A stretch of DNA of 64,000 nt. It comes from Candidatus Nitrosotenuis cloacae (GTDB lineage Archaea > Thermoproteota > Nitrososphaeria > Nitrososphaerales > Nitrosopumilaceae). The notes below the pieces were generated by a model. That model made no database searches, was not told where the DNA came from, and was given only the letters and a program-made list of their open reading frames with translations. The DNA lies in the NCBI RefSeq assembly GCF_000955905.1, contig NZ_CP011097.1:1390582-1454581 (forward strand), read 5' to 3'. The first letter of the stretch is position 1. The number at the start of each line of letters is the position of its first letter. The translations under genes and the position numbers were made by a program. Below, piece by piece: positions 3,592 through 37,479 of this stretch.

Positions 3592-4179
3592 TTGGAAACT
3601 ACAATCCCAAGAAGAAAGCCCCATCCACCAAAAAAAGAAACCACTCGTAGTATCACGTACAGACTTCCAGCTAAAGTAGTCGAAGAGCTAGAAACAGAAG
3701 CCATGCAAAAAAACATCTCGCACAATGTTTTGGTAAAGCAAATTTTGGAAAAATATCTGGCCTGGGACAGATTTGCAGACAAAATCGGCATAATTCCAAT
3801 CCCTAAAAGCATCCTAGAAGAGCTTGGTAAGGAGATGTCGGGTGCTGACATCAACAGAATAATCAGTGTCATTGTTCCGCTAATCAAAGAATCGGTATTA
3901 TTCATGAAAGGTTCCTATGATCTCAAGCGCTGCATAGAAACCTTGGAAGACTACATGCGTGCCTCAGGCATGAAGTCAGACCACCGGATCGAGGGAGCAT
4001 TGCACCATTTCATAGTACAGCACGAACTGGGCCTGAAATGGTCGTTTTTCACAGAGCAACTATTCAAGGAAATATTTCACGAGTTTTTGCCAAACAAGTC
4101 ACTAAAAATCCAGACTACTGAAAAAACAGTGATTGCATCAATTGAGCTTGGATCGGATTTCTCAGAGCACGATTATTAG
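3592..4179 (+). CDS. RHH-like DNA-binding hypothetical protein
   Basis: 195 residues with a TTG start 33 nt after the CBS gene, so probably the same transcript. Residues 18-60 (SITYRLPAKVVEELETEA... then VLVKQILEKYL) fit a ribbon-helix-helix fold: one β-strand followed by two helices. The remaining 130 residues are mostly helical with several His and acidic residues and are not recognised. A related layout (RHH N-terminus plus an unknown C-terminal domain) occurs at 25916. It could be a transcription factor whose C-terminal domain senses a ligand. Confidence 0.7.
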   Translation: METTIPRRKPHPPKKETTRSITYRLPAKVVEELETEAMQKNISHNVLVKQILEKYLAWDRFADKIGIIPIPKSILEELGKEMSGADINRIISVIVPLIKESVLFMKGSYDLKRCIETLEDYMRASGMKSDHRIEGALHHFIVQHELGLKWSFFTEQLFKEIFHEFLPNKSLKIQTTEKTVIASIELGSDFSEHDY

Positions 4180-4210: not shown

Positions 4211-5356
4211 TTAAGAAATAGATCTAATGCTCAGCTTGTATCGCTTCTTTGCCCGCTTTGACAATAATCGCATCAGTCTTCCAGATATCTCATCAAAGAT
4301 CTTGCTGAGATCATATCCACTCCTTGAGAACATGTACCTTTGATGTGGCGTGATTATTGTGGTGGAGACCTCAAAGTTGTATCTGCTGCCGGTTCCGTGG
4401 TTTTTCTTCACATAGACTTTGGCCTCTTGGATGTCAGGATAGACTCGCTGTATCTTATCAAGTATCTTTGTGAATTTCTCCCCGATTATTCCGGCATTGT
4501 CGTCTTTTGGCATTCCGACGATAAACAACGGAACCTTGCTCTTTACTTTGGTGCCAAGCAGATTGAGTATGTCCCTGTATGTTATGATCCCCTGCAGATT
4601 ATCCCACAATGAGACAAGACAGAACGTAGTGTCTGCATGAAGCATCTCGTCTAGGATGTAATTCAGATCATCAAGTGGTGCACAGCTTGCCATTCTGTTT
4701 GTGCCAAGGTTTCCAACGGATGATTCCAGTCGATTGAGCTTGCCCGATCTAATATCGCCCCTTCCCATGCTCTCTGACGGGATTATTGTATGCAACATGT
4801 GATTTGAGGTCAGAACTTGGACTATCTTGTCTTTTTTCACAACCGGTAGATGATCCAGTCGTTTGCTGCTCATCAACATTCTTGCCGTACTCAATAGGGT
4901 GTTGCTTTCTATGACAAGTGGATTTGCAGTAAAGATCTGGTTTGCCTTTATCCACTTGTTGTCAAGCTCAGAGACCAGCTTTAGGATGTCTTTTGATGAG
5001 ACCACCCCTATGATTTGGTCGTCCTTTACTACTGGCGCTGAGCGAATTCTATTGTGGGTAAGTATGTTGACTGCCTTTTCTATGGTGTCGCCCTTTTGCA
5101 GGCTGGAAATTGGGCGCAAGAAAGAGCGGACATTCATCTTTACAATGTCTTTTCCAAGCAAGAGATCTCGCGTGTTTACGTTTAGTGTTACGTGGTTTTC
5201 CCTGCAAAACGCATCAAACGTGTTATTGTGCAGGATGGTATGGATTGCCTCAGATACTGTAGAGGTCGGATCAACCAGTACTGCTTTACTAATTAGGGAA
5301 TCAATTTTTTTGTTCATTATGCCACTAAAGTGGTCATGAATTACATCCAGGCTCAT
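4211..5356 (-). CDS. CBS protein with HPF/RaiA-like C-terminal domain
   Basis: 381 residues: four CBS motifs (about 10-270; signatures IIGVVSSKDIL, IVQVLTSNHML and LQGIITYRDIL) followed by about 105 residues resembling the ribosome hibernation fold. That tail has β-strands around EAKVYVKKN and NFEVSTTIITP, then a Dx2Kx2DEI helix and a strongly basic end. A CBS plus HPF arrangement fits an archaeal ribosome-dimerising or hibernation factor controlled by adenine nucleotides. That role is inferred from domain order; the HPF match is by eye. The gene is divergent from another four-CBS gene, with a shared element at 5403-5417 between them. Confidence 0.75.
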   Translation of the reverse strand: MSLDVIHDHFSGIMNKKIDSLISKAVLVDPTSTVSEAIHTILHNNTFDAFCRENHVTLNVNTRDLLLGKDIVKMNVRSFLRPISSLQKGDTIEKAVNILTHNRIRSAPVVKDDQIIGVVSSKDILKLVSELDNKWIKANQIFTANPLVIESNTLLSTARMLMSSKRLDHLPVVKKDKIVQVLTSNHMLHTIIPSESMGRGDIRSGKLNRLESSVGNLGTNRMASCAPLDDLNYILDEMLHADTTFCLVSLWDNLQGIITYRDILNLLGTKVKSKVPLFIVGMPKDDNAGIIGEKFTKILDKIQRVYPDIQEAKVYVKKNHGTGSRYNFEVSTTIITPHQRYMFSRSGYDLSKIFDEISGRLMRLLSKRAKKRYKLSIRSIS

Positions 5357-35833: not shown

Positions 35834-36235
35834 CTATCTGTCAGCTAGTCTTGCCTGCTCTGTGCTAAATGTATCAATCACATGGGATGCGAGGCGCTCA
35901 ATGTCAAGGTCCTTATCAGCAGAGATCAATAGAGTCATCCTTGCTATAGGAAATGGAAAGCTTATCAGAATTATCTTGTCCCGCCTTGCGGCCAAATAGT
36001 TGATTGGTCCCAGTTCCTTATCCAGCCCTCGCCTCAGGGAGATCTCTGAGATGAACTCCATGAATTTAGTTAATTTTTGTTTGTCACCCTCCATGGGAAT
36101 CAGGCCTTGTTTGAATCCGCCTGCAACTAGCTTGCCGAATTCATCCAATATTCCTGCAAATCTTATCTTCTTTTCCAGTACGAGTTTTTTGCATTTCTCA
36201 TCATATGTAGGATATTTTATTTTGCCCACTAACAT
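35834..36235 (-). CDS. Sensor-like protein, paralogue of 22800 gene
   Basis: 133 residues from ATG 36235 (ATG 36250 is possible). It shares IRFAGILDEFGKLVAGG...GPINYLAARRDKIILISFPF with the gene at 22800, suggesting a small roadblock/profilin-like signalling fold. It is last in a three-gene unit behind a stand-alone RAM/Lrp domain and a Cys-rich mini-protein. The combination of ligand-binding, Cys-rich and sensor-like proteins suggests a signalling complex. Function unknown. Confidence 0.7.
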   Translation of the reverse strand: MLVGKIKYPTYDEKCKKLVLEKKIRFAGILDEFGKLVAGGFKQGLIPMEGDKQKLTKFMEFISEISLRRGLDKELGPINYLAARRDKIILISFPFPIARMTLLISADKDLDIERLASHVIDTFSTEQARLADR

Positions 36236-36468
36236 GGAGCCATCCCCCATAATGTCAGAGTTGATCTGACTCGTGAAATGGCCCTAATCTTGCTAGTTAC
36301 AACATTTTTGATCATTGTATCAGATGGCGCCTCTATTCTTGCAACTATATCATATGCCCCAAATACCCCATACGTTTCCTTGATTTTTTTGATTGATTTT
36401 AGCTCAGATAAAACATGTTCCTCAGAACCAACATCACAATTTATCAAAACATATGCAGATGACATCAT
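36229..36468 (-). CDS. Stand-alone Lrp/AsnC ligand-binding (RAM) domain
   Basis: 79 residues that form just the RAM domain of Lrp/AsnC proteins (AYVLINCDVGSEEHVLSELKSIKKIKETYGVFGAYDIVARIEA...IRAISRVRSTLTLWG), with no helix-turn-helix. Such stand-alone domains oligomerise and bind amino acids and can modulate full-length Lrp proteins. It overlaps the next gene by 7 nt and follows a Cys-rich mini-protein by 8 nt. Confidence 0.88.
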   Translation of the reverse strand: MMSSAYVLINCDVGSEEHVLSELKSIKKIKETYGVFGAYDIVARIEAPSDTMIKNVVTSKIRAISRVRSTLTLWGMAPC

Positions 36469-36476
36469 TATTCACC

Positions 36477-36614
36477 TTATGGAATGTGCTTTTTGCAGTA
36501 ACACTTTAGTTCGGTGCACTCTTTTAGTGCACTGACATATTCAGTCATTGGCTTTTTTTCTATTCCACAGAAGCACACTTCTGCTTCATCTCCACATTTT
36601 ACACAATAGCTCAT
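36477..36614 (-). CDS. 45-aa Cys-rich protein
   Basis: A 45-residue frame with eight Cys in two C-x2-C pairs and further isolated Cys (SYCVKCGDEAEVCFCG...ECTELKCYCKKHIP). Probably binds zinc or an iron-sulfur cluster. It is preceded by a TATA-like GATATATA about 25 nt upstream and heads the unit with the RAM and sensor-like genes. Confidence 0.65.
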   Translation of the reverse strand: MSYCVKCGDEAEVCFCGIEKKPMTEYVSALKECTELKCYCKKHIP

Positions 36615-36825
36615 GATGTTAATACACAGTTTACGTATATATCATAAATCATGTAAAAACCATTAATTCATTAATCATTTTAGAAATAACATAAACAAAT
36701 GTTTAGAATTTTATCACATATTCCAACAAAAGTAGACATCTGTAAGGTAATTTGATGACTAAACAGACAAAATCAAAGAAAACACATGATCAGGCTTTTG
36801 TGCCATGGTGTGGTATGGTATGATA

Positions 36826-36923
36826 GAAGCTGACGCAGTAGCCAATTCATGACGCAACACCGGTTTGCCGGTAGAACATACTGCTTCTGCCCTAAGCAAA
36901 GGATGTTGTCCCCCGTCAGCTTT
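36826..36923 (+). ncRNA. Candidate structured non-coding RNA
   Basis: A 98-nt element closed by a 9-bp stem, AAGCTGACG (36827-36835) with CGTCAGCTT (36914-36922), extendable by a G-T pair. Inside are CAGTA/TACTG (36836-36840/36879-36883), a perfect hairpin ACCGG-TTTG-CCGGT (36859-36872), a GCTT/AAGC hairpin, and a possible pseudoknot CAAC/GTTG (36855-36858/36905-36908). It is more GC-rich than its flanks, codes for no convincing protein and ends just before the tfe TATA box. It lacks a T-loop, so it is not a tRNA. The strand and the ends are inferred. The rest of the 36615-36963 gap is AT-rich with no gene seen. Confidence 0.5.
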
Positions 36924-36931
36924 GTTCGCAG

Positions 36932-36942
36932 ATATTAAATAT
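36932..36942 (+). promoter_or_regulatory. TATA box of tfe
   Basis: ATATTAAATAT lies 22-32 nt before the tfe ATG, the spacing of a leaderless archaeal promoter, and starts right after the candidate RNA. Confidence 0.6.
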
Positions 36943-36963
36943 GCAAAAGGAATTTTCAAGTCA

Positions 36964-37479
36964 ATGGTCGAATCTTACGAGGACCCATTTGTTAGAATCT
37001 CTGCAATGATTGGCGGAGACGAATACCTCAAAGTAGCCCGCGCATTACTAAAAGCAGAAGACGCAACAGACGAGGAAATTGCCAGTTCGACCGGACTGAG
37101 AATAAACATGGTAAGAAAAGTTCTCTATGATTTGTTTGGCAAAGCACTCATCACAGGAATTCGCGTAAAGGATGAGCGAAAGGGCTGGTTTGTGTACAGA
37201 TGGCGCTCAAGAAAGGACGAAGTTGAGAATTTCATTGAAAACCAAAAGAAAAAGATCTCAGAGCGACTCCAGCAAAGACTAGACTATGAGAACTCGTCGC
37301 AATTTTATCACTGTGGAAATGAGGACTGTCCAAGAATTACATTTGAGACGGCACTGGAACAGTTCTTCAAGTGTCCAAGGTGTGGCGGCGTGGTGAACCT
37401 AAAGAAAAACGACAAGCTCAAAAAGGCACTAGAATCAAAGGTCACCGAAATAAGAAACGACATGCGTCGTCAGTTATAG
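36964..37479 (+). CDS. tfe: Transcription factor E (TFE alpha)
   Basis: 171 residues from ATG 36964. A winged helix (ATDEEIASSTGLRINMVRKVLYDLFGKALI) is followed by a coiled linker and a zinc ribbon (HCGNEDCPRITFE...FFKCPRCGG). TFE stabilises the open RNA-polymerase promoter complex. The upstream frame extension runs through the structured RNA and is rejected on the basis of the TATA position. The 3' end overlaps the convergent arfC gene by 10 nt. Confidence 0.95.
   Translation: MVESYEDPFVRISAMIGGDEYLKVARALLKAEDATDEEIASSTGLRINMVRKVLYDLFGKALITGIRVKDERKGWFVYRWRSRKDEVENFIENQKKKISERLQQRLDYENSSQFYHCGNEDCPRITFETALEQFFKCPRCGGVVNLKKNDKLKKALESKVTEIRNDMRRQL

Follow-up and report, generated by a model that had tools for sequence, protein, structure and literature searches.

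A covarying structured RNA family of Nitrosopumilaceae, probably the product of an independent small-RNA gene

A structured RNA of 98 nt (94–106 nt in relatives) lies on the + strand of the window, i.e., of the whole stretch of 64,000 nucleotides from Candidatus Nitrosotenuis cloacae that was analysed, and almost certainly represents a genuine RNA family outside Rfam. In our opinion, this RNA is very probably specified by a gene of its own and, given such an independent gene, it is probably a trans-acting regulator or a component of a ribonucleoprotein. The best explanation as a whole, namely an independent small-RNA gene with its own promoter and with a folded product most probably acting in trans, can be considered fairly likely. 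By classification, this is a new family of the broad kind of stand-alone structured small RNAs and a member of no narrower family. The element was delimited using covariation and the covariance models R1–R3, which recovered full-length homologues in Nitrosopumilaceae. Its parts are as follows:

36826..36923, + strand: RNA element, from P1 to P1′
36826..36834, + strand: P1 5′ strand, GAAGCUGAC, forming nine consecutive pairs with 36915–36923
36915..36923, + strand: P1 3′ strand, GUCAGCUUU, partner of the P1 5′ strand
36836..36848, + strand: P2 region (5′-proximal hairpin), in this genome three weak pairs read from the sequence
36855..36861, + strand: P3 5′ strand CAACACC, pairing with 36901–36908 with the A at 36903 bulged
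36864..36868, + strand: P4 5′ strand UUUGC, pairing with GCAAA at 36896–36900
36870..36876, + strand: P5 5′ strand GGUAGAA, pairing with UUCUGCC at 36885–36891
36877–36884, + strand: P5 terminal loop, CAUACUGC, including the widely kept AUAC (read from alignments)

The conserved fold consists of P1, the 5′ hairpin P2 and a long arm P3–P5 with a small P6, and covariation establishes this three-way arrangement. The main covariation alignment, which was fitted to the structure, contained 73 matches (63 distinct sequences) and 31 base pairs. Compensatory double changes were found in 21 of these pairs, amounting to 172 cells, and standard pairs made up 95.1% of the cells in paired columns. In shuffled controls, 86.4% of cells were paired and 12.5 pairs were double-changed (50 ± 6 cells); slid-partner controls gave 28–44% of cells paired, 7–12 double-changed pairs and 18–37 cells. 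The shuffles ignore the kinship of the sequences; the slid controls keep it and are equally far from the observed values. The same signal, although more modest, was present in plain MAFFT alignments that predated the structure fitting and were not fitted to any model (46 cells against 18 ± 4, and 11 against 4.4 ± 2.1). The proposal of the earlier note, a + strand structured RNA about 98 nt long, was borne out by the covariation and the full-length homologues.

The nine-pair closing stem P1, recognised already in that note, is nearly invariant in the window's genus. Elsewhere in the family it varies with compensation (GAAGCUAAC/GUUGGCUUC, GAAGCCAAC/GUUGGCUUC, AAAGUUGAC/GUCAACUUU and UAAGCCAAC/GUUGGCUUA), and double changes were found at six of its nine pairs. 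Substitutions breaking P1 had been named beforehand as grounds for abandoning the proposal; those found were compensated, and the suggested covariance search with models from relatives returned homologues with compensatory changes in this stem. P1 is preceded by G in 74% and followed by C in 69%, so the stem is frequently extended by one pair. In most relatives, the P2 hairpin directly follows the P1 5′ strand (CAAUA..UAUUG, CGAUA..UAUCG), with 93% of cells paired and one pair occurring as AU in 44 and as GC in 12 cases; it is strong in Nitrosarchaeum, Nitrosopumilus and g18 and weak in the window's genome. P3 changes from AACA/UGUU in the window's clade to GGCA/UGCC in L014-type relatives. 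P4 takes the forms UUUGC/GCAAA or UUUAC/GUAAA, as well as CUUGC/GCAAG in L017, and at one of its pairs 41 of the 63 sequences have A-U and 20 have G-C. P5 has double changes at all five modelled pairs, and the terminal loop of relatives usually contains AUAC.

Two other pairings proposed in the earlier note were not upheld. The perfect 5-bp hairpin ACCGG-UUUG-CCGGU is formed in 75% of cells and broken in many relatives, whereas the P3/P4 pairing, which uses the same bases and is mutually exclusive with this hairpin, is formed in 92–95%, with double changes. Of 34 sequences, only 2 contain the GCAGUA/UACUGC pseudoknot in full, and it is not conserved. An all-genera MAFFT alignment (A3) gave a poor fold with RNAalifold, the rows of the genus Nitrosotenuis being apparently out of register in P5; the revised model was built without these rows, which were then realigned.

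Concerning the distribution of the family, a DNA search of 151 genomes of the window's family gave 12 further matches; a match of that search at L013 was short and lay inside other sequence. The first covariance model, built from ten full-length sequences, matched 57 of 200 family genomes, after which the new sequences were realigned, the fold was revised and two further models were constructed. In a class-wide sweep, 73 of the 232 genomes that were at least 90% complete gave a match, corresponding to about a third of the high-quality Nitrososphaeria genomes. All of them belong to the window's own family, Nitrosopumilaceae (5 of 58 genera), and a sixth genus with the RNA was found in an earlier, larger sweep. 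The bearers are Nitrosotenuis, Nitrosarchaeum, Nitrosopumilus, a Nitrosomaritimum-like genus (Candidatus Nitrosomaritimum) and two others; the family spans marine and freshwater ammonia-oxidising archaea. No match was obtained in most genera outside these six in covariance-model sweeps with strict filters, which divergent members may escape. Within the window's genus, G034 and G094 gave no match, and in G062 (L007) the RNA is truncated, its 5′ half being replaced. Such a patchy distribution indicates that this is not a universal housekeeping RNA. Viral contigs did not match two P1-anchored exact patterns, which is a weak test. The RNA is also present in a record titled Nitrososphaeraceae archaeon SCK_bin.6 (L109, JAICOU010000007.1), whose flanks are Nitrosarchaeum-like; this record is probably misnamed or misbinned.

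Most genomes carry a single copy, and several Nitrosopumilus genomes have three to five dispersed ones:

G195: five copies, L075–L079
G011: four copies, L068–L071
G306: four copies, L080–L083
G154: three copies, L072–L074
G290: three copies, L084–L086

G011 contains two pairs of copies whose similarity (93% and 97%) extends little beyond the RNA, and their flanks, including the promoter, are unrelated. At the locus common to G011 and G154, identity reaches 94% in the far upstream flank and only 79% in the RNA. Judging from these alignments, the identity limited to the RNA suggests gene conversion between paralogues or the transfer or movement of RNA-sized units.

Signals of transcription were found on both sides of the element:

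36788..36802, + strand: probable RNA promoter, GATC...CTTTTGTG, TATA-like, centred about 28–30 nt upstream of P1
36921..36926, + strand: weak U-rich stretch UUUGUU, probable transcript end, with a putative terminator role

A common GGATC..TTTTTATT-like element was recognised in 42 non-redundant upstream sequences, with T in 86–88% at −30 to −28 before P1, and the window's version (GATC, CTTTTGTG) is weaker than the GGATCT-A-TTTTTATT of relatives. Of 73 loci, 65 have TTTT or TTTA at −35..−22, compared with 20 at −60..−47. This element keeps its distance whatever the neighbours, including the case of paralogues at unrelated sites, which points to a promoter independent of the neighbouring genes. 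In archaea, the TATA box is usually about 25 nt from the start, and transcription would therefore begin at or just before P1. Downstream of P1, relatives have T in 60–74% at +5 to +9, and at least four T within 15 nt in 38 of 73 loci; the U-rich end of the window's RNA is again weaker. Since the promoter-like and U-rich signals hold fixed positions, transcription of the + strand would be driven by a TATA promoter belonging to the RNA gene itself; it would start at P1 or no more than a few nucleotides away, and stop in the U-rich stretch just after this stem. The positions of both signals match the + strand, and paired columns contain 231 G-U against 19 A-C cells, a count somewhat biased by the model having been built on this strand. 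On the opposite strand, the model scored about 18–20 bits compared with about 100. A protein-coding reading was rejected as well, the lengths of 94–106 nt having no three-base periodicity.

The predicted discrete transcript of about 100–110 nt would fold into a three-way arrangement closed by P1, with a short P2 and a long irregular P3–P4–P5 arm bearing the terminal loop. Because the neighbours are not conserved, the paralogues multiply at unrelated sites and the structure is kept while the sequence drifts, we infer that the folded RNA acts in trans, either within a ribonucleoprotein, as its RNA component, or as a regulatory sRNA, and that it is probably protein-bound.

The genomic surroundings of the RNA in the window are:

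36964..37479, + strand: tfe (TFE alpha, 171 aa; TFIIE_alpha PF02002, E = 6.2e-16), downstream neighbour, outside the RNA gene
36932..36943, + strand: tfe TATA box, ATATTAAATATG, outside the RNA gene, conserved in L002–L007 including the RNA-less L006
36229–36468, − strand: single-domain AsnC protein (PF01037), in a divergent cluster upstream of the RNA
35834–36250, − strand: DUF6659 protein, in the same divergent cluster

Several other readings were weighed against an independent RNA gene. The properties of the single sequence would by themselves leave room for a chance structure in non-coding DNA. The element is richer in GC than its upstream flank, as had been remarked earlier (0.50 at 36800–36899 against 0.22–0.29 at 36600–36799), and its minimum-energy fold, which includes the conserved P3–P5 fold, has −30.0 kcal/mol with z = −2.55, being equalled by 2 of 200 shuffles. 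Such stability is moderately unusual and unconvincing alone; the comparative evidence is decisive, and the double changes together with full-length covariance-model matches in dozens of genomes refute chance, leaving it a negligible probability. It is also highly improbable that the RNA is a cis-regulatory leader (a riboswitch, an attenuator or a thermosensor) of the downstream gene, here tfe. A conserved core closed by P1 is reminiscent of riboswitches, and in the window's genome and in L002–L005 the RNA stands directly before tfe on the same strand, ending at 36923, just before the tfe TATA box, as the first reading of the sequence had stated. However, this TATA box sits between the RNA and the start codon, and it is kept in G131 (L006) with no RNA upstream; tfe is probably a separate, leaderless transcript. 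Moreover, tfe was not found around the RNA in five congeners (G100, G116, G070, G076 and G126; L008–L012) within about 1.5 kb per side, or less at contig ends, and a special relation to this gene was not supported. By simple ORF calling, 46 distinct neighbour contexts were distinguished for the RNA, in which the downstream genes fall into 28 families, only 13 co-directional, and the upstream genes into 30 families, 11 co-directional. Riboswitches and leaders typically precede, in the same direction, one particular gene or pathway in different genomes; this arrangement is not observed.

It is unlikely, although the least improbable of these alternatives, that the sequence is a small MITE- or SINE-like element, mobile or retroposed, in which P1 would be a terminal inverted repeat and the whole not a functional RNA gene. 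In favour of this reading are the inverted repeats that bound the element, the dispersed copies of some genomes and the G011 pairs whose similarity hardly exceeds the RNA. Against it, covariation of internal helices over several genera in a mostly single-copy sequence would be unexpected for a decaying element, the promoter occupies the same place in the copies although it is mostly unalike in sequence, and gene conversion between paralogues accounts equally well for the restricted identity. It is only marginally less probable that the RNA belongs, as a divergent member, to one of the known guide classes (H/ACA or C/D box RNA). Archaea are rich in such genes, and the size and the organism fit; archaeal H/ACA sRNAs resemble the new RNA in size, the lower stem and the irregular upper stem, and a closed stem with internal bulges is H/ACA-like. 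However, only 3 of 73 loci have an ACA in the 6 nt that follow P1, no consistent k-turn was noticed on inspection of the family, and the extra 5′ hairpin P2 takes the position of an H/ACA pocket strand. By its features, the RNA is not an H/ACA guide. C/D box sRNAs carry RUGAUGA and CUGA boxes close to their ends, together with a k-turn; in the new RNA, CUGA was read only within the P1 5′ strand. Rfam 15 gave no match in the window at the gathering threshold, its best sub-threshold matches there (E up to 10) were unrelated eukaryotic models, and eight relatives (E up to 1) had no relevant match over the RNA, including to C/D models.

Further known classes had been set aside in the earlier note, and rightly so. 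ARAGORN reported no tRNA in the window, and no catalogued riboswitch was matched in Rfam. The archaeal SRP RNA (RF01857) and RNase P RNA (RF00373) are, like the new RNA, stand-alone structured RNA genes of the same genome (G000); both were found elsewhere in it above the cut-off, and neither model matches the new RNA. A literature search outside subscription papers found no described non-coding RNA of Nitrosopumilaceae. Thalassoarchaea ncRNA 1 (Tan1), a 229-nt RNA of MG-II Euryarchaeota found by comparison of homologues and in metatranscriptomes, is likewise a free-standing structured non-coding RNA of abundant marine archaea with a function not known, and it is set apart from the new RNA by its described size and host (PMC5069720). 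For archaeal intergenic sRNAs, such as those described from Haloferax mediterranei, functions are mostly not known; compared with these sRNAs, the new RNA has as its defining trait a multi-helix scaffold of 31 pairs that is strongly conserved from genus to genus (PMC5852579).

Nitrosopumilaceae are among the most abundant marine archaea and drivers of nitrification, and their small RNAs are little known. A covarying, promoter-bearing family without an Rfam entry, extending from Nitrosotenuis to marine Nitrosopumilus, provides a concrete molecule for pull-down, probing and deletion, and its model can be used in annotation pipelines, keeping such RNA genes from being overprinted by false ORFs or mistaken for gene leaders. 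A bolder reading, which we regard as rather doubtful, makes the RNA the core of a ribonucleoprotein or global regulator that is confined to Nitrosopumilaceae and has so far escaped recognition. It might bind, for example, to the ribosome, to RNA polymerase or to a sensory protein, and in some Nitrosopumilus it would have been duplicated and diversified into paralogues that swap sequence by gene conversion.

Some minor observations concern the neighbouring genes. The open frame of tfe extends upstream into the RNA (TTG at 36865; 36865–36963 in the window), where an annotation pipeline might therefore set the start of the gene; the ATG at 36964 is favoured because of the TATA box at 36932. The DNA adjoining tfe in G062 (L007/L032) and G131 (L006) differs from that in other congeners and contains similar ATTTGTTTGAT stretches in both, which suggests a local rearrangement. 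In most members of the window's genus, the RNA has a single-domain AsnC gene within about 500 bp. The same applies to two G011 copies (4292–4525 in L068 and 3307–3540 in L071) and to the locus common to G306 and G195 (4247–4483 in L080), which makes three or four contexts. Each genome has 7–17 matches to single-domain AsnC (PF01037), and most other contexts are without such a gene; this proximity, noticed after the fact, may be more than chance, and a cis role is conceivable at some copies near AsnC genes in G011 and G306/G195.

Other observations concern the RNA itself. In Nitrosarchaeum (L029, L047, L049 and L031), the P2 5′ strand can find a partner either in the near UAUUG or in the farther AAUGUUG/AAUAGUG; the alternative pairing CACUAUU/AAUAGUG was observed in L029 and L047. 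The far pairing is favoured in L049 and L029, where a switch or a clade-specific refolding is possible. Finally, G197 has two divergent RNA copies in L087, at 4060–4163 (−) and 4553–4652 (+), separated by about 390 bp; the latter copy has an aberrant sequence (AAGGCAGAA..UUCUGUCUU) and is perhaps a decayed or very divergent paralogue.
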